DNA of 64,000 bases, taken from contig NZ_FWFP01000008.1 of assembly GCF_900172215.1 (NCBI RefSeq), positions 62,001 to 126,000 of the forward strand, given 5' to 3'. How positions within the stretch are numbered: the stretch's first letter is position 1; the number at the start of each line of letters is the position of its first letter. Made by a program: the position numbers and the translations under genes. Shown here one piece after another: positions 859-11,928 of the stretch. The notes under the pieces are model-generated. The model searched no databases, was not told where the DNA came from, and saw only the letters and a program-made list of their open reading frames with translations. The DNA comes from Ruegeria meonggei. GTDB taxonomy: Bacteria; Pseudomonadota; Alphaproteobacteria; Rhodobacterales; Rhodobacteraceae.

Positions 859-1890
859 TCAGATCATTTGAAACAGGATGCCTGAAATAATGGCACCTGT
901 AATCCCCAGCCCCAGATAGGTCGCAAAGACCCGTGGTTTGACCAGCGACCAGACTGCCGCCATGGCCGGGATGGAACTGACGGCGCCAGCGATCATGAAG
1001 GACATCGCAGCCCCGGCGCTCATCCCTTGTTCGGTCAATCCAGCCAAAAGCGGTGGCGCGACGTACGAGTTCAGGTATGCAGGCATTCCAACCAGTGCAG
1101 CGATCACGATGGGCACAATACCTTCGCCTCCGACCACGCGGGCAATCAGATCAGCCGGGACATAGCTGACCAACAGCGCCTCAAGCACATAGGCCAGTGC
1201 CAGCCATTTCAGCAGAAACAGACCGTTCTGGGCGAATTCGGCCCGGAACCGTGTGCGGCGCTCCGGCTCTTGCCAGAACTTCCAAACAGGTTTGTCGTCC
1301 TGCTTAGGGCCACAGCCGCAGCAGCTGGCGGGCTTGTATTCGCGCAGCGGCTGCGCAAATGCGCCGCCGCGCATCAAGGCCCGCACGGTGAACCCGCCAA
1401 ACAGGCCCAAAGCCACGGCCGCAATCGCCTTGCCGATGGCAAAGGGCCAGCCCAACGCGCCCGCTGTGATCAGCAAGGTCGGCGGATCGATCAAAGGCGA
1501 GCTCAGCCAAAACGCCATTACTGCGGACAGTGGCGCGCCCAGCGCCAGCAATCCTGCGATGAACGGAATGACTTCGCAGGAACAGAATGGAGCCAACCCG
1601 CCAAACAGCGCCGCCAGCAGGATCATCCGCGTCTCGCGGCCCTCAAAGGCGCGGGCAACCATGACCTCGGCCCCGGTGGCCTTGAGGTAGGACAAAAGAA
1701 GAACGGCAAACAGGATGTACTGCCCGGTATGAGCCAATGCTTTGCCAGCAAAGATCACCACCTCGCCCCAGTTTCCGGGATCCAGAATGGCAACGGCGAC
1801 CAGCATAGCCACAATCACCGCCCAAGGTGTCTTGATCAGGTCAAGCGCGGCCTTGGCCGAAACTTTCGGGTTTTGCGTCAGATCAGCCAT
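859..1890 (-). CDS. UPF0718/DUF318-family permease (ArsP-like)
   Basis: This is a 343-residue polytopic protein with roughly eight hydrophobic segments in two homologous halves around a polar cytoplasmic loop. It belongs to the DUF318/UPF0718 permeases, the family of the organoarsenical efflux protein ArsP. Visible landmarks are the conserved CSC motif (C103, C105, in FCSCEVIP), the SSPLIDPPT segment, and an unusual Cys cluster in the loop (C190, C191, C193, in SCCGCGP). The ATG at 1890 overlaps the end of the upstream arsR-type gene by eight bases, so the two are translationally coupled. The substrate is unknown. TauR-like sites upstream of the operon raise the possibility of a role in sulfonate or sulfite metabolism rather than arsenic. 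Confidence 0.8.
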   Translation of the reverse strand: MADLTQNPKVSAKAALDLIKTPWAVIVAMLVAVAILDPGNWGEVVIFAGKALAHTGQYILFAVLLLSYLKATGAEVMVARAFEGRETRMILLAALFGGLAPFCSCEVIPFIAGLLALGAPLSAVMAFWLSSPLIDPPTLLITAGALGWPFAIGKAIAAVALGLFGGFTVRALMRGGAFAQPLREYKPASCCGCGPKQDDKPVWKFWQEPERRTRFRAEFAQNGLFLLKWLALAYVLEALLVSYVPADLIARVVGGEGIVPIVIAALVGMPAYLNSYVAPPLLAGLTEQGMSAGAAMSFMIAGAVSSIPAMAAVWSLVKPRVFATYLGLGITGAIISGILFQMI

Positions 1891-2191
1891 CGTTTGCCGC
1901 CTTTCCAACCTCATCCGCGCAACATTCGCTGAGGATGAACTCTGCCAGGGTCCGCAATTCGCCGTAACTGGCGCGATTGATTGTGCTGCGCCCGATTTTC
2001 TCTTGTACGACCACGCCACCTGCCGCCAGAAATCGCAGGTGATGGGCCAGGGTCGACGGGGCGATGCCCGTCCGCTCTTGGATGTCACCAACGGTCAGAC
2101 CGCCCTCACCGGCGCGGACCAGTGTCTTCAGAACCTTCAGCCGCGCCTCAGAACCCATGGCCGAGAATCCAGCTGCTGCTGTTTCCCACAT
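1883..2191 (-). CDS. ArsR-family winged-helix transcriptional regulator
   Basis: The 102-residue protein has the ArsR/SmtB layout: helix 1-2 (residues 8-30), recognition region around residues 35-58 (GDIQERTGIAPSTLAHHLRFL), and a beta wing after it. The classic ArsR metal box ELCVCDL is absent. A vicinal Cys pair (C90, C91) near the C-terminus could sense thiols or a metalloid, which is inference. It is the first gene of a leftward operon with the permease. Its probable operator is the perfect palindrome at 2228-2241. It most likely represses the operon and releases it on binding a ligand. Confidence 0.85.
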   Translation of the reverse strand: MWETAAAGFSAMGSEARLKVLKTLVRAGEGGLTVGDIQERTGIAPSTLAHHLRFLAAGGVVVQEKIGRSTINRASYGELRTLAEFILSECCADEVGKAANDG

Positions 2192-2227
2192 CTTGCTTAC
2201 TCCATTAAACTAGATTTATAGTTACTT

Positions 2228-2241
2228 AATTTTATAAAATT
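2228..2241. promoter_or_regulatory. Perfect AT palindrome, candidate ArsR operator
   Basis: AATTTTATAAAATT is a perfect 14-bp palindrome 37 bases upstream of the arsR-type start. Its position downstream of a TTGACG-like -35 (leftward strand, near 2247-2252) fits a repressor operator overlapping the promoter. Confidence 0.45.
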
Positions 2242-2280
2242 CTTCCGTCAACCGGCAGGGCGTATATTTTTGGCGAAAGT

Positions 2281-2312
2281 GTAAGTCCAGATTGCTCAAC
2301 CTATAAGTCCAC
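2281..2312 (-). promoter_or_regulatory. TauR-like direct repeats between arsR and tauR
   Basis: Read leftward, two half-sites occur: GTGGACTTAT (2312-2303) and CTGGACTTAC (2290-2281), spaced 22 bp start to start. They match 8 and 9 of 10 positions of CTGGACYTAA, the TauR half-site I recall from Rhodobacter capsulatus. They end 13 bp before the tauR start codon, suiting autorepression, and lie 121 and 99 bp upstream of the arsR-type start, suiting activation of the leftward operon. Confidence 0.6.
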
Positions 2313-2325
2313 TCTATAAGGCCCT

Positions 2326-3786
2326 ATGGGAATATCGGTCGACACCTTCTTTCTGGAACTTAACGGTCAGGGCACGCTGCAGGCACAGATCCAGCAGATG
2401 ATTGCCGAGGGCATTCTGTCCGGCAGATTCCATGTCGGGGAAAAACTGCCCTCGTCGCGCAAACTGGCCGCACATCTGGGGGTCAGTCGGATCACCGTCA
2501 CGCTGGCCTATACCGAACTGCTGGCCAATGATTACCTGACAGCAAAGGGCCGGTCCGGCTATTACGTATCGCAAAATGCGCCGGTCCCGCCGAAATACTC
2601 GCCGGTTCCGCGCGGCACAGAAACCGTGGATTGGGACAAAACACTGGCGCGCCGTTTCTCGGACGGGGACGTTCTGCCCAAACCCAGCAACTGGCGGGAC
2701 TATCGTTACCCGTTCATCTATGGCCAGGCCGACCGGACCCTGTTCGATCATGCCAATTGGCGGCTGTGCGCAGTGCGCGCGCTGGGGCACAAGGATTTCG
2801 AATCCCTGACCGCCGATTACGTGGATCAGGACGATCCCCTTCTGATCGAGTTCATCGCCCGGCATACCCTGCCCCGCCGTGGCATCGCCGCCCGCCCCGA
2901 AGAGATTCTGATCACGCTGGGGGCACAAAATGCGCTTTGGCTGGCCTCGCGCATTTTACTGACCCACAACCGCAATGCCGTGATCGAGGACCCCTGTTAC
3001 TATGCATTGCGGAGCCTTCTGGATCACTGGGACTGCACTGTAACCCCGCTCAGCGTGGATCGGGACGGTTTGCCGCCCGAAGCGCTGCCGGATCAGACCG
3101 ACGTCATTTTCACCACCCCCAGCCACCAAAGCCCGACGACCGCAACCATGCCCGTCAATCGCCGCTCCCACCTGCTGGAGCGCGCCAAAGAGTTGGACGC
3201 CATGGTGGTCGAGGATGACTATGAATTTGAAATGGCGTTTCTGGGTGCGCCATCCCCCGCGCTGAAATCCATGGACCGGGACGGGCGCGTCGTCTATGTC
3301 GGCAGCTTTTCGAAATCGCTGTTTCCCGGATTGCGCCTTGGCTACATGGTCGGGTCCGAACCCTTTATCCGCGAGGCGCGGGCGCTGCGGTCGCTGGTGC
3401 TGCGCCACCCGCCGGGGCACATTCAGCGCACCGCAGCCTATTTCCTGTCGTTGGGCCATTACGACGCGCAAATCCGGCGGATGTCCAAAACACTGGCAAA
3501 GCGCCGCGATGCGATGGACACCGCCATTGCAGAACACGGGCTGACCGTTGCGGGGCGTGGTGTACTGGGCGGTTCATCCATGTGGATGTCCGCTCCTGAC
3601 CATGTCGACATGACACGGCTTGCGCACAAACTGCAAAGTCAAAGCGTGCATATCGAACCCGGTGCTCCGTTCTTTTCTGGGCCTGAAAAACCGCAGAATT
3701 TCTATCGCCTCGGCTATTCGTCCATCGCAGCTGAGCGGATTGCGCCAGGTGTGAAGTTAATTGCGGACGCCATTCGCACCTCTTAG
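2326..3786 (+). CDS. tauR: MocR-type (GntR/aminotransferase) regulator TauR
   Basis: TauR controls taurine/sulfonate utilisation genes. The 486-residue protein has an N-terminal GntR winged helix (about residues 15-80; SSRKLAAHLGVSRITVTLAYTEL) joined to a type I aminotransferase-fold domain. The PLP-lysine is K330 in the SFSKSLFPGLRLGY motif. Length and architecture are typical of the MocR subfamily. The gene lies directly upstream of xsc in the same direction, as in Rhodobacter capsulatus and Ruegeria. The ATG at 2326 is preceded by an AAGG ribosome-binding site. TauR-like repeats lie just upstream of its start and between tauR and xsc, so autoregulation and control of xsc are both expected. 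Confidence 0.9.
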   Translation: MGISVDTFFLELNGQGTLQAQIQQMIAEGILSGRFHVGEKLPSSRKLAAHLGVSRITVTLAYTELLANDYLTAKGRSGYYVSQNAPVPPKYSPVPRGTETVDWDKTLARRFSDGDVLPKPSNWRDYRYPFIYGQADRTLFDHANWRLCAVRALGHKDFESLTADYVDQDDPLLIEFIARHTLPRRGIAARPEEILITLGAQNALWLASRILLTHNRNAVIEDPCYYALRSLLDHWDCTVTPLSVDRDGLPPEALPDQTDVIFTTPSHQSPTTATMPVNRRSHLLERAKELDAMVVEDDYEFEMAFLGAPSPALKSMDRDGRVVYVGSFSKSLFPGLRLGYMVGSEPFIREARALRSLVLRHPPGHIQRTAAYFLSLGHYDAQIRRMSKTLAKRRDAMDTAIAEHGLTVAGRGVLGGSSMWMSAPDHVDMTRLAHKLQSQSVHIEPGAPFFSGPEKPQNFYRLGYSSIAAERIAPGVKLIADAIRTS

Positions 3787-3793
3787 CGCGACA

Positions 3794-3826
3794 CTGGACC
3801 TAAACCGCCGCACGTTCTGGCCCTAA
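3794..3826 (+). promoter_or_regulatory. TauR binding site upstream of xsc
   Basis: Two direct repeats, CTGGACCTAA (3794-3803) and CTGGCCCTAA (3817-3826), are spaced 23 bp apart. The first is a full match and the second 9/10 to CTGGACYTAA. They lie 119 and 96 bp upstream of the xsc start, an activator-like position. A third partial copy, CTGGACTGA, occurs at 3865-3873. Confidence 0.75.
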
Positions 3827-3912: not shown

Positions 3913-5691
3913 ATGAAAATGACCACTGAAGAGGCCTTTGTTAAGGTTCTGCAATCGCACGGGATCGAACATGCATTCGGGATCATCGGTTCGGCGATGA
4001 TGCCGATCTCGGATATTTTTGGAAAAGCTGGCATTACTTTCTGGGATTGCGCGCATGAAGGCTCGGGCGGGATGATGGCCGACGGATACACACGCGCCAC
4101 CGGCAAAATGTCGATGATGATCGCGCAGAACGGCCCCGGGATCACCAACTTTGTCACCGCCGTCAAAACCGCCTACTGGAACCACACCCCGCTGCTGCTG
4201 GTAACTCCGCAGGCCGCAAACAAGACCATGGGTCAGGGCGGGTTCCAGGAAATGGAACAGATGCGCATGTTTGCAGACTGCGTCTGCTATCAGGAAGAAG
4301 TGCGCGACCCCTCGCGGATGGCCGAAGTTCTGAGCCGCGTTATCACCAAGGCCAAGCGCGCCTCGGCACCGGCACAGATCAACGTGCCACGTGATTTCTT
4401 CACTCAGGTTGTCGATATCGAACTGCCTGCCGTGGTTGAATTTGAACTGCCTTCCGGCGGCACATCAGCCGTTACCGAAGCCGCCGCGCTGCTGTCGGAT
4501 GCCAAGAACCCTGTCATCCTGAACGGCGCGGGCACGGTTCTGTCCGCGGGCGGCATCGAAGCCTCGAAAGCACTGGCCGAGCGTCTGGACGCCCCGGTTT
4601 GTGTTGGCTACCAGCATAACGACGCCTTCCCGGGCTCGCACCCGCTGTTTGCTGGCCCGTTGGGTTACAACGGCTCGAAAGCCGGTATGGAGCTGATCAA
4701 AGAAGCGGACGTGGTTTTGTGTCTCGGCACCCGCCTGAACCCGTTTTCGACCCTTCCTGGCTATGGCATGGAATACTGGCCAGCGAATGCAAAGATCATT
4801 CAGGTTGATATTAACCCCGATCGCATTGGCCTAACCAAGAAGGTATCTGTCGGTATCGTTGGCGACGCAGCCACTGTTGCAACCAGTATCCTGGCACAGC
4901 TGTCGGACACTGCAGGTGACGAAGGACGCGATGCACGCAAAGCGAAGATCGCGGAAACCAAGTCGCGCTGGGCGCAGGAACTGACGTCGATGGACCACGA
5001 GCAGGACGATCCGGGCACCACCTGGAATGAACGCGCCCGTTCCGCCAAACCTGATTGGATGAGCCCCCGCATGGCGTGGCGTGCGATCCAGCAGGCCCTG
5101 CCGAAAGAAGCGATCATCTCGTCTGACATTGGCAACAACTGCGCCATTGGCAACGCGTACCCGTCCTTCGAAGAAGGCCGCAAATACCTAGCCCCCGGTC
5201 TGTTCGGCCCCTGTGGTTATGGCCTGCCATCGGTGATTGGCGCCAAAATCGGTTGTCCGGATGTTCCGGTTGTCGGGTTCTCGGGTGACGGCGCCTTTGG
5301 TATTGCCGTAACCGAACTGACCGCCATCGGACGTGACGAATGGCCCGCTGTTACTCAGATCGTTTTCCGTAACTACCAGTGGGGTGCGGAAAAGCGGAAC
5401 TCGACCCTTTGGTTTGACGACAACTTCGTCGGAACCGAGCTGGACACTCAGGTATCGTACGCTGGTATCGCGCAGGCTTGTGGTTTGAAAGGTGTGGTCG
5501 CACGCACGCAAGACGAACTGACTGCAGCCCTGAATCAGGCCATTGAAGATCAGAAAAACGGTATCACCACTCTGATCGAAGCGATGATCAACCAGGAACT
5601 GGGCGAACCCTTCCGTCGCGATGCGATGAAAAAGCCGGTTGCGGTCGCTGGTATCTCGACCGACGACATGACCCCGCAGGCTGGGGCATAA
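3913..5691 (+). CDS. xsc: Sulfoacetaldehyde acetyltransferase
   Basis: Xsc (EC 2.3.3.15) is a thiamine-diphosphate enzyme that converts sulfoacetaldehyde and phosphate to acetyl phosphate and sulfite. It is the desulfonating step for taurine and several other C2 sulfonates. The 592-residue protein has the three-domain acetolactate-synthase fold: an N-terminal pyrimidine-binding domain (residues 1-165, with the HEGSGGMMADGYTRATGK segment), a central domain, and a C-terminal ThDP domain with the GDGAFG metal-binding motif. Length and N-terminus match the Xsc family rather than acetolactate synthase. A GGAGAA ribosome-binding site precedes ATG 3913. The downstream pta starts five bases after the stop, so the two are co-transcribed. 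Confidence 0.95.
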   Translation: MKMTTEEAFVKVLQSHGIEHAFGIIGSAMMPISDIFGKAGITFWDCAHEGSGGMMADGYTRATGKMSMMIAQNGPGITNFVTAVKTAYWNHTPLLLVTPQAANKTMGQGGFQEMEQMRMFADCVCYQEEVRDPSRMAEVLSRVITKAKRASAPAQINVPRDFFTQVVDIELPAVVEFELPSGGTSAVTEAAALLSDAKNPVILNGAGTVLSAGGIEASKALAERLDAPVCVGYQHNDAFPGSHPLFAGPLGYNGSKAGMELIKEADVVLCLGTRLNPFSTLPGYGMEYWPANAKIIQVDINPDRIGLTKKVSVGIVGDAATVATSILAQLSDTAGDEGRDARKAKIAETKSRWAQELTSMDHEQDDPGTTWNERARSAKPDWMSPRMAWRAIQQALPKEAIISSDIGNNCAIGNAYPSFEEGRKYLAPGLFGPCGYGLPSVIGAKIGCPDVPVVGFSGDGAFGIAVTELTAIGRDEWPAVTQIVFRNYQWGAEKRNSTLWFDDNFVGTELDTQVSYAGIAQACGLKGVVARTQDELTAALNQAIEDQKNGITTLIEAMINQELGEPFRRDAMKKPVAVAGISTDDMTPQAGA

Positions 5692-5696
5692 CCCGC

Positions 5697-6716
5697 GTGA
5701 AACCTCTGCGCGCCATTCTTGGCACGGCCTCCGCATCTGACAAAATCATCGCCCTGTCCGAGGGCGATGATCCACGTATTGTCGAAGGCGCGGTCATGGC
5801 CGTGAAAGAGGGTGTCGCGCAGATCGTTCTTGTGGGCAACTACGACAAGGTTTCGGCACTTCTTACGGCGCATTCGGGTTTCGACCCGAACCGGATTGAA
5901 ATCCACGACCCCGATTCCTCTCCTTTGCTGCCTCAGTTTGCAGCAGCCTTGCTTGAACGCCGCAAGCACAAAGGCATGACAATTGAGATGGCGCAGGAGC
6001 AAGTCAAAAACCGCCTGTTCTATGCCGCCTTGCTGGTCGAAGAAGGCATCGTCGATGGTACAGTTGGTGGCGCAGTCGAGACCACGTCGGACACGGTGCG
6101 TGCCGCGCTGCAGATCATTGGGACAGCACCAGATGCCGCAATGGTGTCCAGTTTCTTTCTGATGCTGTTTTGTCAGGATCACCACGACGTCAAAGGTGTA
6201 CGCGTCTTTGCGGATTGCGGCCTTGTGGTTGACCCGAATGCACAGGAAATGGCCGAAATCGCCCGCGCCTCTGCCGCGTCTTATACCGCGCTGACCGGAG
6301 ACACTGCGCGTGTCGCCATGCTGTCTTTCTCGACCTCGGGCAGCGCCGAGCACCCAAAGGTATCCAAGGTTGTAGAGGCCACGCAGATTGCCCGCGCGTC
6401 AGACCCAGATTTGTTGATAGATGGCGAATTGCAGTTCGACGCGGCATTTGTACCCGAGGTCGCGGCTAAAAAAGCCGTCGGTTCACCGCTTGAAGGGCAG
6501 GCGAATGTCTTTGTGTTCCCAAGCCTGAACGCCGGTAATCTGGGTTACAAAATCGCCCAACGCATCGGCGGCGTCGAAGCTATCGGGCCGGTTCTGCAGG
6601 GTTTGGCCAAACCTGCCAATGATTTGTCTCGCGGGTGTACGTCCGAAGATATCCTGCACATGATCGCCGTCACTGCAGTGCAGGCACAAACGCACGAAAC
6701 CGGAACAAAAAGCTAG
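5697..6716 (+). CDS. pta: Phosphate acetyltransferase
   Basis: Pta (EC 2.3.1.8) transfers the acetyl group of acetyl phosphate to CoA, feeding the Xsc product into central metabolism. The 339-residue protein is a stand-alone PTA_PTB domain, the short form found beside xsc in sulfonate-degrading bacteria, and lacks the N-terminal regulatory domains of the long enterobacterial enzyme. The frame begins with GTG at 5697, five bases after the xsc stop, with a GGGG stretch ten bases upstream as a weak ribosome-binding site. No TauR-like site or terminator separates it from xsc or from soeA 82 bp downstream, so the whole set may be read from the xsc promoter. Confidence 0.92.
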   Translation: MKPLRAILGTASASDKIIALSEGDDPRIVEGAVMAVKEGVAQIVLVGNYDKVSALLTAHSGFDPNRIEIHDPDSSPLLPQFAAALLERRKHKGMTIEMAQEQVKNRLFYAALLVEEGIVDGTVGGAVETTSDTVRAALQIIGTAPDAAMVSSFFLMLFCQDHHDVKGVRVFADCGLVVDPNAQEMAEIARASAASYTALTGDTARVAMLSFSTSGSAEHPKVSKVVEATQIARASDPDLLIDGELQFDAAFVPEVAAKKAVGSPLEGQANVFVFPSLNAGNLGYKIAQRIGGVEAIGPVLQGLAKPANDLSRGCTSEDILHMIAVTAVQAQTHETGTKS

Positions 6717-6798: not shown

Positions 6799-9612
6799 AT
6801 GAACCAGCCAAAAATTGACACGTCGCCCAAGGTCTCGGACGAAGTCCGCAAAACCACCTGTTACATGTGCGCCTGTCGCTGTGGCATCAATGTGCATATG
6901 AAGGACGGAAAGGTCGCCTATATCGAAGGCAACCGCGACCATCCGGTCAACAAGGGCGTGCTCTGCGCCAAGGGCAGCGCCGGGATCATGCAGGTTAATG
7001 CGCCGTCCCGGCTTCGCAAACCGCTGCGCCGTGTCGGCCCACGCGGATCAGGTGAATTCCGCGAGATAGAATGGGACGAAGCGATCAGCACCGCCGTCGG
7101 CTGGCTGAACGAATTGCACGAAACCGCGCCACAAAAGTTGGCCTTCTTCACCGGCCGCGATCAGAGCCAAAGCTTTACGTCGTTCTGGGCTCAGAATTTC
7201 GGTACGCCCAACTACGCCGCGCATGGCGGTTTCTGCTCCGTCAACATGGCGGCAGGCGGCATCTACACGATGGGCGGCGCGTTCTGGGAATTCGGCCAGC
7301 CCGACTGGGATCACACCAAGCTGTTCATGTTGTTCGGTGTGGCCGAGGACCATGACAGCAACCCGATCAAGATGGGGCTAGGCAAGATCAAGGCGCGCGG
7401 CGCGCGGGTGATCGGCGTCAACCCGATCCGATCCGGCTATAACGCAGTAGCCGATGACTGGGTCGGGATCACGCCCGGCACGGACGGGTTGTTCATCCTG
7501 TCGCTGATCCATGTGCTGATGAAGGCGGGCAAGATCGATCTGGATTACCTCAGCCGCTATACCAACGCGCCGGTTCTGGTGAATGCGTCAGATGGCCCAG
7601 AAAAGGGTCTGTTCCTGCGCGACGCGGATGGCAAGCCGCTGGTGATCGACCGAGTGACTGGCGAACCCACGGCCTTCGACAAGCCCGGTGTGCGCCCGGA
7701 TCTGTCGGCCACCTATGAAAAGGGCGGCGTCACCCACCGCCCGGTGTTCCACCTGATGGCCGACAAGTACCTTAACGACGAACACGCGCCCGACGCCGTG
7801 GCCGAACGCTGCGGCATCCCGGCCAAGCGCATCCGCGCCATCGCGGCGGAAATTGCCCGTGTCGCCTTTGACGAGGCAATCGAGCTGGATCAGGAATGGA
7901 CCGACTTCCGGGGTGAGACCCACTCCAAGATGATCGGTCGCCCGGTCAGTTTCCACGCCATGCGCGGGATTTCGGCCCATGCCAACGGGTTCCACACCTG
8001 CCGCGCCCTTCATGTGCTGCAAATCCTCCTCGGCACGGTCGAGGTGCCCGGTGGTTTCCGCTTCAAACCACCCTACCCCAAACCAGTCGAGGCGCATCCG
8101 ACGCCCCATGGCGACCGCCGCCCCGGCCGCCCGCTGGAAGGCCCGCATCTTGGCTTCCCGCGTGGTCCCGCAGACCTGTTGCTGGACGAAATCGGCAACG
8201 CACAGCGCATCGACAAAGCCTTCACCTGGGAAAACCCGATGTCGGCCCATGGGCTGATGCATATGGTGATCTCGAACGCCGCTGCTGGCGATCCCTACAA
8301 GATCGACACGCTGTTTATGTATATGGCGAACATGTCTTGGAATTCCTCCATGAACACCAAAGGTGTGATGGAGATGCTGACCGCCAAGACCGAAGACGGC
8401 AAATATGTCATCCCGAATATCATCTACTCGGATGCCTATTCCTCGGAAATGGTTGCCTATGCCGACCTGATCCTGCCCGATACCACCTATCTGGAACGGC
8501 ATGACTGCATCTCGTTGCTGGATCGTCCGATTTGCGAGGCGGACGCTGCCGCCGATGCGATCCGTTGGCCCGTGATTGAGCCCGACCGGGACGTACGTGG
8601 ATTCCAGTCGGTGTTGGTCGAATTGGCCAACCGCATGAGCTTGCCGGGCTTTACCAACGAAGACGGTAGCCCCAAGTGGAAAGACTACGCCGATTACATC
8701 GTCAATCACCAGCGCAAGCCGGGCATTGGCCCTCTGGCCGGGTTTCGCGGAGAAAACGGCGACAAGGAAGGCCGCGGCGAGGTCAATCCGGACCAGTTGA
8801 ACCGCTATATCGAAAATGGCGGTTTCTACGTCGCCCACATCCCCGACGGGGCCGATTACTACAAACCGTGGAATACCGCCTATCAGGACTGGGCCGTGGG
8901 GATGGGCATCTATGACAGCCCGCAGCCTTACCTGTTCCAGCTCTACTCGGAACCGATGCGCAAATTCCAGCTGGCCGCCGAAGGGCACGGAGACCGCCAG
9001 CCGCCCGAGAACCTGCGCCAGCGGATCAAAGACACGATGGACCCGCTGCCGATCTGGTACGAAACCGACCAGCAGGGCAACGAGGGCTTCACCATCAACG
9101 CCCTGACCCAGCGCCCGATGGCGATGTATCACAGCTGGGGCACCCAGAACGCCTGGCTGCGGCAACTGCATGGGCGCAATCCTCTCTATGTGCCGACCAA
9201 GCTGATGCGCAAACACGATCTGCAAGACGGCGACTGGGCTAAAGTCAGCTCGCCGCACGGCGAGATCACAGTGCCAGTGATGGAAATGGCCGCGTTGAAC
9301 GACAACACCGTCTGGACCTGGAACGCCATCGGCAAACGCAAAGGCGCATGGGCCCTGCAGAATGATGCGCCCGAGGCCACCAAAGGCTTCCTGCTGAACC
9401 ACCTGATCCACGAATTGCTTCCCCCCAAAGGGGACGGCATGCGCTGGGCCAATTCCGACCCTGTGACCGGACAAGCTGCGTGGTTCGACCTGAAAGTGAA
9501 ACTTGAAAAAGCTGCACCGCCTTCAGATGCCGAAAGCCAGCCGGAATTCAACGCGCTTGAATCACCCGTTGGCACTGGCCCGAAAGATCTGGCGTGGAAG
9601 GTCGGCAAATGA
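6799..9612 (+). CDS. soeA: Sulfite dehydrogenase molybdopterin subunit SoeA
   Basis: SoeA is the catalytic subunit of the membrane-bound, cytoplasm-facing sulfite-oxidising enzyme SoeABC, which turns sulfite into sulfate and passes electrons to quinone. This 937-residue member of the DMSO-reductase family carries an N-terminal [4Fe-4S] motif (C21, C24, C28, C56), two molybdopterin oxidoreductase regions and a C-terminal Mo-bis-MGD dinucleotide-binding domain. There is no twin-arginine signal, consistent with a cytoplasmic location. AGGGGAAAAG provides the ribosome-binding site for ATG 6799. Position directly after xsc-pta, which release sulfite, supports SoeA over a formate, tetrathionate or polysulfide function. 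Confidence 0.85.
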   Translation: MNQPKIDTSPKVSDEVRKTTCYMCACRCGINVHMKDGKVAYIEGNRDHPVNKGVLCAKGSAGIMQVNAPSRLRKPLRRVGPRGSGEFREIEWDEAISTAVGWLNELHETAPQKLAFFTGRDQSQSFTSFWAQNFGTPNYAAHGGFCSVNMAAGGIYTMGGAFWEFGQPDWDHTKLFMLFGVAEDHDSNPIKMGLGKIKARGARVIGVNPIRSGYNAVADDWVGITPGTDGLFILSLIHVLMKAGKIDLDYLSRYTNAPVLVNASDGPEKGLFLRDADGKPLVIDRVTGEPTAFDKPGVRPDLSATYEKGGVTHRPVFHLMADKYLNDEHAPDAVAERCGIPAKRIRAIAAEIARVAFDEAIELDQEWTDFRGETHSKMIGRPVSFHAMRGISAHANGFHTCRALHVLQILLGTVEVPGGFRFKPPYPKPVEAHPTPHGDRRPGRPLEGPHLGFPRGPADLLLDEIGNAQRIDKAFTWENPMSAHGLMHMVISNAAAGDPYKIDTLFMYMANMSWNSSMNTKGVMEMLTAKTEDGKYVIPNIIYSDAYSSEMVAYADLILPDTTYLERHDCISLLDRPICEADAAADAIRWPVIEPDRDVRGFQSVLVELANRMSLPGFTNEDGSPKWKDYADYIVNHQRKPGIGPLAGFRGENGDKEGRGEVNPDQLNRYIENGGFYVAHIPDGADYYKPWNTAYQDWAVGMGIYDSPQPYLFQLYSEPMRKFQLAAEGHGDRQPPENLRQRIKDTMDPLPIWYETDQQGNEGFTINALTQRPMAMYHSWGTQNAWLRQLHGRNPLYVPTKLMRKHDLQDGDWAKVSSPHGEITVPVMEMAALNDNTVWTWNAIGKRKGAWALQNDAPEATKGFLLNHLIHELLPPKGDGMRWANSDPVTGQAAWFDLKVKLEKAAPPSDAESQPEFNALESPVGTGPKDLAWKVGK

Positions 9613-9721: not shown

Positions 9722-10489
9722 ATGACCCAGCTACCGCAATCCACCGAGCGTAAAATGGGCCTGGTCATCGACCTGGACACCTGTGTCGGCTGCCATGCCT
9801 GTGTGATTTCCTGCAAGGGCTGGAACACAGAAAACTACGGTGCGCCCCTGTCGGATCAGGACGCCTATGGCGCCAACCCGTCGGGCACCTTCCTGAACAG
9901 GGTCCATTCCTACGAGGTACAACCCGCGCCGACCGACGCCCACCCCGCGCCCGCCGCCCAGTTGATCCACTTCCCCAAGTCCTGCCTGCATTGCGAGGAC
10001 GCGCCCTGCGTCACCGTTTGCCCAACAGGCGCCAGCTATAAGCGGGTCGAGGATGGCATCGTTCTGGTCAATGAAAGCGACTGCATCGGTTGCGGATTAT
10101 GCGCCTGGGCCTGCCCCTACGGCGCGCGGGAACTGGACGCGGCTGAGGGCGTGATGAAAAAATGCACCCTCTGCGTCGACCGGATCTACAATGAGAACCT
10201 GCCCGAGGTGGACCGCGTCCCATCGTGCGTACGTACCTGTCCAGCAGGTGCACGGCATTTCGGCGATCTCGGCGATCCCGACAGCGATGTCAGCAAACTG
10301 GTTGCCCAGCGTGAGGGCATGGACCTGATGCCCGAAATGGGCACCAAACCCGTCAACAAATACCTGCCACCGCGGCCCAAGGATCAGATTGAAGACCAGA
10401 TCGACATTCTGGCCCCGCTTCTGGCCCCCATTGCCGAAGAACCCAAGGGTTTCCTCAGCTGGCTCGATAAGACTCTGGAGAAGCTCTGA
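9722..10489 (+). CDS. soeB: Sulfite dehydrogenase iron-sulfur subunit SoeB
   Basis: This 255-residue ferredoxin-type protein carries four cysteine clusters of the DmsB/NrfC type: DTCVGCHACVISCK, SCLHCEDAPCVTVCP, DCIGCGLCAWACP and KCTLCVDR with CVRTCP. They would hold four [4Fe-4S] centres passing electrons from SoeA to the membrane subunit. There is no signal peptide. It is separated from soeA by 109 bp containing a palindromic repeat and overlaps soeC by one base (TGATG), so B and C are translationally coupled. Gene order A-B-C is that of known soeABC clusters. Confidence 0.87.
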   Translation: MTQLPQSTERKMGLVIDLDTCVGCHACVISCKGWNTENYGAPLSDQDAYGANPSGTFLNRVHSYEVQPAPTDAHPAPAAQLIHFPKSCLHCEDAPCVTVCPTGASYKRVEDGIVLVNESDCIGCGLCAWACPYGARELDAAEGVMKKCTLCVDRIYNENLPEVDRVPSCVRTCPAGARHFGDLGDPDSDVSKLVAQREGMDLMPEMGTKPVNKYLPPRPKDQIEDQIDILAPLLAPIAEEPKGFLSWLDKTLEKL

Positions 10490-11361
10490 TGCATCCGGCC
10501 CCTTCTGTCATTCTATTCACCACCCTGTCGGGTCTGGGTTTTGGTCTGTTGTTCTTTCTGGGTCTCGGAATGCCGGACGTCAGCGGTTGGGTGGCGTTTG
10601 TGTTCTATGCCATCGCTTTTGGTCTGTCAGTAGGTGGATTGATGGCTTCGACCTTTCACCTGGGTCACCCGGAACGGGCGTTGAAGGCCTTTACCCAGTG
10701 GAAATCCAGCTGGCTTAGTCGCGAAGGCTGGTGCGCAGTCATCGCTCTGATCTTTATGGGCCTGTTTGCCATCGGCGCGGTATTCTTCGGTCAACGCTGG
10801 GGCGCGCTGGGTATCCTCGGCACACTGTTTTCACTGGCGACAGTTTTCACGACATCGATGATCTATACGCAGCTCAAGACCATCCCGCGCTGGAACATGA
10901 AACTGACACCCGCCATGTTCCTCAGCTTCAGCCTTGCCGGCGGTGCGCTGCTTGCGGGGCAGACAGGAGTTGCTGTGCCCTTGCTGGTGATCGCCGCAAT
11001 GATACAGGCGCTGTACTGGTGGCTGGGCGACAAGGCTTTTGCGCAATCCGGAACCAATATGGGCACCGCCACAGGGCTGGGCCAGCGTGGCGCGGTCACA
11101 GCCTTTGAGCCCCCACATACCGGCACCAACTACCTGCTGCGCGAATTCGTCCATGTGGTTGGGCGCAAACATGCAGAAAAACTGCGGATCATCTCGTTTC
11201 TGCTGGCCTTCTTTGTGCCCGTTATCCTGCTGTTGCTGCCGTTCAACCACTTTTTTGCCCTGCTCGCCGTTCTGTCGCACCTGGCGGGGGTCGCCGTCTC
11301 TCGCTGGTTGTTTTTTGCGCAGGCTGAACATGTGGTCGGGTTGTATTACGGCAAACGCTGA
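10489..11361 (+). CDS. soeC: Sulfite dehydrogenase membrane anchor SoeC
   Basis: This 290-residue protein is strongly hydrophobic with about eight membrane spans, of the DmsC/SoeC anchor family. It would bind quinone and hold SoeAB on the cytoplasmic side of the inner membrane. The STFHLGHPERALKAFTQWKSSWLSREGW segment after the second span is typical of DmsC-like anchors. The start codon overlaps the soeB stop. A strong terminator follows eight bases after the stop, closing the sulfonate/sulfite gene set. Confidence 0.87.
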   Translation: MHPAPSVILFTTLSGLGFGLLFFLGLGMPDVSGWVAFVFYAIAFGLSVGGLMASTFHLGHPERALKAFTQWKSSWLSREGWCAVIALIFMGLFAIGAVFFGQRWGALGILGTLFSLATVFTTSMIYTQLKTIPRWNMKLTPAMFLSFSLAGGALLAGQTGVAVPLLVIAAMIQALYWWLGDKAFAQSGTNMGTATGLGQRGAVTAFEPPHTGTNYLLREFVHVVGRKHAEKLRIISFLLAFFVPVILLLLPFNHFFALLAVLSHLAGVAVSRWLFFAQAEHVVGLYYGKR

Positions 11362-11405: not shown

Positions 11406-11432
11406 TGTCACAAACCCAGTGACTCATACGTC
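11406..11432 (+). promoter_or_regulatory. ECF41-type promoter
   Basis: TGTCACA (11406-11412), a 16-bp spacer and CGTC (11429-11432) match the -35 and -10 elements reported for ECF41 sigma factors. The element lies 35 bp upstream of the partner gene whose end overlaps the ECF41 gene, so the sigma factor probably drives its own operon. Confidence 0.8.
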
Positions 11433-11466
11433 CTGTTTTTGTTCAATCCCAAAACAGGAGAATACG

Positions 11467-11928
11467 ATGTCCCCCCGGATCAATCACTTTGCCGTCGCAC
11501 CCACTTTGCTTCAGCCCATGCTCGATATGGAGGAACGCCTGCGCGCCTCCGATCTGGAACACAGCCTGATCGAGCTGGTCAAACTCAGGGTATCGCAGAT
11601 AAATGGCTGCGCCTATTGCATTCACATGCACACGCATGACGCCCGCAACAACGGCGAAACCGAAGATCGGTTGCATTTGTTGAACGCCTGGCATGAATCG
11701 TCGCTGTATTCGGAACGCGAACGGGCAGCGCTGATCTGGGCGGAATCCCTGACCCGCATCGAAACCAGCCGCGCGCCGGACGACGTCTATAACGCCATGG
11801 CGGTACAGTTTCCGCAGCCGGACCAGGTGGCGCTGACCCTGGTGATCACCACCATCAATGCATGGAACCGCCTGGCCATTGGGTTTGCGATGCCTCACCC
11901 GGAAACCAGAAAAGCCACGGCCGCGTGA
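11467..11928 (+). CDS. Carboxymuconolactone decarboxylase family protein (AhpD-like)
   Basis: The 153-residue protein has the AhpD-type core with E36 upstream and the motif C48-x-x-C51-x-x-x-H55 (GCAYCIHMHTH), typical of alkylhydroperoxidase-like carboxymuconolactone decarboxylases that use a redox cysteine pair. The ATG at 11467 has a good CAGGAG ribosome-binding site. An upstream in-frame ATG at 11419 is rejected because it lies inside the promoter. Genes of this family are one of the three partner types (COE: decarboxylase, oxidoreductase, epimerase) next to ECF41 sigma genes. Its last codons overlap the sigma gene start. The physiological substrate is not known. Confidence 0.88.
   Translation: MSPRINHFAVAPTLLQPMLDMEERLRASDLEHSLIELVKLRVSQINGCAYCIHMHTHDARNNGETEDRLHLLNAWHESSLYSERERAALIWAESLTRIETSRAPDDVYNAMAVQFPQPDQVALTLVITTINAWNRLAIGFAMPHPETRKATAA

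Follow-up and report, generated by a model that had tools for sequence, protein, structure and literature searches.

The question raised by this locus is whether the arsR-permease operon that is transcribed divergently from tauR belongs to the TauR regulon, since repeats resembling TauR sites lie in the gap between the two genes as well as before xsc. In the window (the whole stretch of 64,000 nucleotides analysed here) direct reading and pattern matching give two half-sites in the gap, CTGGACTTAC at 2281-2290 (minus strand, one mismatch to CTGGACYTAA) and GTGGACTTAT at 2303-2312 (minus strand, two mismatches), and two before xsc, CTGGACCTAA at 3794-3803 (plus strand, no mismatch) and CTGGCCCTAA at 3817-3826 (plus strand, one mismatch). 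The ATG starts are at 2191 for arsR (minus), 2326 for tauR (plus) and 3913 for xsc (plus); the gap half-sites thus stand 121 and 99 bp before the arsR ATG with a spacing of 22 bp, and the other two 119 and 96 bp before the xsc ATG with a spacing of 23 bp. All these positions, strands and distances agree with the sequence-only reading, which had argued from the mirrored geometry that TauR activates the leftward operon as it does xsc. We hold with good confidence a different reading, namely that the gap repeats are the operator of tauR itself, that TauR represses tauR and activates xsc and tpa, and that the arsR-permease operon is separately promoted and probably run by ArsR.

A match to a single half-site is weak evidence: with up to two mismatches there are 75 in the window against 49.7 expected, and no exact 10-mer pair with a gap of 8-16 bases occurs in the window. 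When pairs of the core TGGMCYTA are searched with zero mismatches through the 4.54-Mb genome, the sole place at spacing 23 is the xsc pair (3794..3826, plus strand, gene-near core TGGCCCTA) and the sole place at spacing 22 is the gap pair (2281..2312, minus strand, cores TGGACTTA at 2304-2311 and 2282-2289). The exact pattern TGGACYTA-N10-16-TGGACYTA likewise matches the genome once, at the gap pair, but the backwards control also gives one match; the rarity of the gap pair is therefore not a strong argument, and the case was rested on conservation. Other places in the genome with up to two mismatches (12 at spacing 23 and 8 at spacing 22, against 36 and 51 in the backwards control) are likely to be mostly noise.

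We compared 169 tauR loci, 117 of them drawn from 198 genomes sampled across the family (seven, L183-L189, being more distant matches, and five partial matches having been left out) and 52 further ones found by searching 54 genomes of the genus. Among the 117 family loci a single 38-bp zone before tauR, read on the minus strand with up to two mismatches, contains the start of the pair in 65. The controls on this zone gave one locus for the plus strand, none for the reversed consensus and none for a zone placed 200 bp further up, and 100 shuffled consensuses gave a mean of 0.52 with a largest value of 37, reached by one shuffle that probably came out close to the consensus itself. Judged by this conservation, the gap repeats between arsR and tauR are a real TauR-type site, to which TauR probably binds; in this respect the sequence-only reading was right, whereas its extension of the TauR regulon to the arsR-permease operon is not supported by the sequence comparisons that follow.

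A divergent arsR followed by the permease lies left of tauR at 60 of the 169 loci, including 54 of 54 genus genomes; left neighbours were taken as the longest open reading frames, a noisy choice, and were relied on only if the gene was borne out by a family match. At all 60 loci the start of the pair is 44-46 bp upstream of the tauR ATG (no mismatch in 49, one in 8 and two in 3), and its distance to the arsR ATG ranges from 101 to 1155 bp. Among the 109 tauR loci without arsR-permease the pair (up to two mismatches) is present in the tauR zone in 57, and the remaining 52 comprise 21 with three mismatches and 31 with more. The pair is thus commoner with arsR-permease (60/60) than without it (57/109), partly because 54 of the 60 loci belong to one genus; the six family loci with arsR-permease from outside the genus all have the pair at tauR. 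In a named set of 80 loci, partly from the same species, it is found at tauR in 51 of 53 loci with arsR-permease and in 23 of 27 without. At three loci a co-oriented gene precedes tauR: a phosphoglycolate phosphatase gene ending 43 bp before it (L047, pair at -45), a YggS gene ending 44 bp before it (L090, pair at -46), both above the cut-off of their models, and a class-III aminotransferase gene (L100, pair at -46). The pair at tauR needs no divergent partner. A motif scan of other genomes, which had been proposed as a check, does find the repeats where the gene order is the same, but they are not limited to that order.

The converse comparison, in which arsR is separated from tauR, leads to the same side. 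In 22 loci with more than 175 bp between arsR and tauR (eight with an open reading frame of more than 200 aa in between, and some species represented twice) no pair with up to two mismatches stands at a distance of 300 bp or less from arsR. Two of these loci, L025 and L251, have a second pair with three mismatches and a spacing of 24 that faces arsR, and the other wide-gap loci have five to seven mismatches. Among the best 30 loci of a permease search, 20 have no tauR beside arsR (L197 and L202-L220; L206 has a partial TauR match elsewhere in its flank, and in the genome of L197 a tauR lies about 2 kb away), and the 400 bp before arsR in these 20 contain no pair with up to two mismatches, one locus having three mismatches and the others five or six. 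A site of up to two mismatches that travels with the arsR-permease operon away from tauR was found at none of these 20 loci and near arsR at none of the 22 wide-gap loci. The position of the gap pair follows tauR, not arsR-permease, and the equal distance to the ATG at arsR and xsc looks like a coincidence.

The leftward operon appears to have a promoter of its own. The predicted -35 element of arsR is TTGACG (2246..2251, minus strand) and the predicted -10 element TAAGTA (2223..2228, minus strand), and a palindrome, AACTATAAATCTAGTT (2208..2223, minus strand), which differs by one mismatch from the genus form AACTAGAAATCTAGTT, is the probable operator to which ArsR would bind. Read toward arsR, the aligned gaps contain the pair, a stretch that varies in length, and TTGAC, followed after about 17 bp by a -10-like TAAATA and then by the palindrome AACTAGaaatCTAGTT. 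TTGA is found before arsR at 56 of 60 loci; in 53 of these the palindrome follows at 28 or 29 bp. From the end of the pair to this TTGA there are 12-44 bp at 54 of the 56 loci, two standing apart with 108 and 1068 bp, so that no fixed distance between site and promoter exists at arsR over the 56 loci. Of the 56, 25 fall at 30 or 31 bp and 38 at 29-34 bp, and this clustering, which comes mostly from close relatives, is the best remaining argument for a link between the pair and arsR. A conserved AAAACC-like element follows the gene-near half-site of xsc at 22 bp in 45 of 46 genus loci and at 21 bp in the remaining one. How far a site is from the ATG tells little, because the xsc half-site is fixed relative to the next element while the distance from the pair to the arsR -35 element varies. 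Among the arsR-permease loci without an adjoining tauR, eight closer orthologues (L197, L202-L208) have palindromes resembling AACTA/TAGTT before arsR, as judged by eye, and the more distant ones have other sequences there.

The products of the operon suggest metal(loid) efflux. The ArsR-type regulator (1883..2191, minus strand) has 102 aa with a CC pair at residues 90-91, the permease (859..1890, minus strand) is a PF03773 ArsP_1 protein with a CxC motif at residues 103/105, and both cysteine motifs are kept in 17 of 17 aligned homologues. An ArsP_1 permease thus stands together with an ArsR-type HTH protein that carries thiol ligands. In Pfam the permease matches PF03773 only and not the TauE/DUF81 domain of the TauE sulfite exporter, and against the NCBIfam SO_0444 Cu/Zn and SaoE models it remains below the cut-off. 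For the permease, export of a metal(loid) under the control of ArsR is more probable than export of sulfite, and a thiol-binding metal(loid) would be a likelier substrate than sulfite. The export of sulfite or another sulfonate product, as suggested by the sequence-only reading, is without family support for this ArsP_1 protein, and the xsc cluster itself continues with pta-soeABC-like genes. As an argument for a shared function, adjacency to tauR was also set aside, 54 of the 60 loci coming from one genus. Most likely we are dealing with a metal(loid) efflux unit that is next to tauR by inherited gene order. The vicinal-cysteine ArsR-type regulator beside a PF03773 permease resembles known ArsR-ArsP efflux systems, of which the ArsP of Campylobacter is described in PMC6205960 as an exporter of trivalent organoarsenicals; compared with such systems, the permease here falls below the cut-off of the two NCBIfam models named above. 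At a Jhaorihella locus a protein encoded between arsR and tauR (L280:2494-3777) matches a sulfide quinone reductase model below its cut-off (111 against 525 bits), a hint that in some genomes the arsR-permease unit may come into contact with sulfur species.

The tauR gene (2326..3786, plus strand) encodes a MocR-type regulator with GntR and aminotransferase domains (PF00392 and PF00155, both above cut-off), whose closest named relatives are from Ruegeria. It adjoins xsc, CTGGACYTAA-like direct repeats precede the taurine genes, and its name is taken from this context and from the annotation of SPO3562 in Ruegeria pomeroyi. The best 25 NCBIfam matches of the product include no TauR model, and it scores 351.8 against the PdxR model, above the cut-off of 320; automatic annotation may name it PdxR. 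Because the name rests on context, the product is to be understood as TauR-like by function.

From the sequence and from the profile of 39 family loci that we call class I, the -35 element of tauR is predicted to be TTGCTC (2292..2297, plus strand), between the two half-sites, and the -10 element TATAAG (2315..2320, plus strand), 17 bp from it. As this -10 element is only five bases before the ATG, the tauR mRNA would be leaderless. The class I loci have in common TAAGtCCAGATTGc...TA.GtCCAg.cTA..ctg..c.cATG before tauR, which may be read as a -35 element TTGC, 17 bp, a -10 element and a start at the ATG; in them the half-sites bracket the predicted -35 element. In class II (17 loci) there are 2-6 bp between the end of the pair and the assigned tauR start, which at two of these loci is no start codon. 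Both layouts would obstruct the transcription of tauR from its predicted promoters. In the window one half-site abuts the predicted -35 element and the other sits in the spacer between -35 and -10, and TauR bound there would stand in the way of RNA polymerase at the tauR promoter. The gap pair is most likely the site of TauR autorepression, and the overlap with the tauR start region, already pointed out as consistent with autorepression, is by position and conservation the best-supported part of the earlier proposal. Autorepression of tauR is thereby predicted in many roseobacters. According to the text of PMC5320631, MocR regulators are often auto-repressors; as with the auto-repressing GabR of Bacillus subtilis described there, the site here overlaps the predicted promoter of the regulator, but unlike in GabR-type systems the divergent gene does not appear to be an activated target.

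The sites before the taurine genes form a second class. A pair with up to two mismatches to the relaxed core TGGMCYTA precedes xsc in 79 of the 79 family loci where the xsc start was found, the shuffled-consensus control having covered the tauR zone only. In the genus the spacing is 22 in 54 of 54 tauR pairs and 23 in 46 of 46 xsc pairs, the gene-near half at xsc is TGGCCCTA in 45 of 46, and the gap half nearer arsR is TGGACTTA in 49 of 54. The split is softer in the family sample: at tauR the spacing is 22 in 69 of 82 sites and 23 in 10 (117 loci, relaxed core), at xsc it is 23 in 71 of 79 and 22 in 8, and TGGCCCTA is found in 61 of 79 pairs at xsc against 5 of 82 at tauR. By its spacing of 22 and its core, the gap pair belongs to the tauR class and not to the class of xsc and tpa. 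The latter is represented in the same genome by a TauR-type pair with one mismatch and spacing 23 (C29:43308-43338, L003), far from tauR; at a distance of 133 bp it is followed by a gene for a class-III aminotransferase like those that stand beside tauR elsewhere, which we read as a putative tpa, the NCBIfam models listed for it all being below cut-off. Of 54 tpa-like loci in the genus 30 were analysed, and in all 29 of these where the gene was located it is preceded by a pair with up to two mismatches; the 14 listed pairs all have spacing 23, carry TGGCCCTA at their end and begin 129-134 bp upstream of the ATG. From these pairs spaced by 23 bp TauR would activate xsc and tpa.

It is conceivable, though we regard it as doubtful, that the spacing works as a code, in which pairs of 22 bp at TauR's own promoter repress and pairs of 23 bp with a gene-near TGGCCCTA (xsc, tpa) activate, the tauR mRNA being leaderless and its promoter lying between the half-sites. 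If so, the arsR-permease operon lies beside a repression-type site. In any case the site at tauR and the target sites differ, by 22 against 23 bp, in a way that can be tested. A further pair with one mismatch stands 234 bp before thiD in the same genome (C32:153771-153801, L004), and a pair is found 233-234 bp before thiD in at least 3 of 30 genus loci (L301, L311 and L319, among 13 listed). Since thiamine diphosphate is required by Xsc, control of thiD by TauR would make sense, but the case for it is weak.

One would argue that TauR bound at the gap pair nevertheless activates arsR-permease in the manner of xsc, with the permease exporting sulfite or a sulfonate product, or that a single site serves for repression of tauR and for activation of the divergent operon. 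According to the text of PMC5320631, genes of MocR regulators often form divergons with the genes that these activate; one site could then serve both sides. The orientation and ATG distance of the gap pair do match those at xsc, and the 129-134 bp between the 14 listed tpa pairs and their ATG also speak for this view, but it is tauR that the pair accompanies, not arsR, and it has the tauR-type spacing. The clustering at 29-34 bp from the arsR -35 element is what a functional link would also give; against it stand the full range of 12 to 44 bp with the two outlying loci, and the TTGAC element that arsR has of its own. The second pairs facing arsR at L025 and L251, and the 52 loci without arsR-permease that lack a pair of up to two mismatches at tauR, count against the autorepression reading. 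The constant company of arsR-permease and tauR in the genus would suit the alternative, which still has to accommodate a permease that matches ArsP_1 only. On balance we consider this alternative unlikely.

The fixed position relative to tauR would also be expected if TauR activated its own gene from the gap pair. Half-sites that flank the predicted -35 element and fill the spacer in class I, and a pair that ends just before the assigned start in class II, are awkward for activation, and the spacing is unlike that at xsc and tpa; positive autoregulation therefore appears rather improbable. Least credible of all, to the point that we give it hardly any weight, is the view that the repeats are chance matches or are bound by another factor. 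Single half-sites are common and the exact gapped pattern is no rarer than its backwards control, but conservation at one place and on one strand in 65 of 117 loci, against none or one in three controls, the presence of the same motif before xsc (79/79) and tpa (29/29), and the consensus reported for Rhodobacter capsulatus TauR (PMC5320631) all oppose it. With the autorepression reading, a connection of taurine catabolism to an ArsP_1 permease, attractive as it is, loses its basis. That a site is equally far from two start codons says little about co-regulation, and a better test is which gene keeps the site.

For R. capsulatus TauR the text of PMC5320631 reports consensus direct repeats near CTGGACYTAA, and the system here is alike in its MocR architecture, in such repeats and in the sites before xsc and a tpa-like gene; it is unlike it in having a pair at tauR itself, with spacing 22 as against 23 at xsc. 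In the same text, as far as consulted, neither arsR nor an ArsP_1 permease is listed among the TauR targets. Literature searches gave no paper that brings together arsR, a permease and DUF318, or arsR and tauR transcripts with taurine in Ruegeria pomeroyi. When R. pomeroyi is with Micromonas, its xsc is 27.2-fold and its pta 19.3-fold enriched according to PMC9870897; SPO3562, SPO3563 and SPO3564 are absent from the main text of that paper, which says little because its table is a selection.

The genes that follow tauR make up the xsc cluster: xsc, sulfoacetaldehyde acetyltransferase (3913..5691, plus strand, TIGR03457 above cut-off), pta, phosphate acetyltransferase (5697..6716, plus strand), and genes for a molybdopterin subunit (6799-9612), an iron-sulfur subunit (9722-10489) and a DmsC-like anchor (10489-11361), all on the plus strand. 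The last three are putative soe genes by their gene order with R. pomeroyi, where the order pta-soeABC (sulfite dehydrogenase) is annotated (PMC4334477). Reconstructed TauR regulons of some Rhodobacterales contain bisC, dmsC, hybA and a COG2128 protein, as given in the text of PMC5320631, and the genes after pta here match these members by family type. After the soe-like genes lies a gene for an AhpD-domain, carboxymuconolactone decarboxylase-like protein (11419-11928), which may be the counterpart of the COG2128 protein of those regulons.
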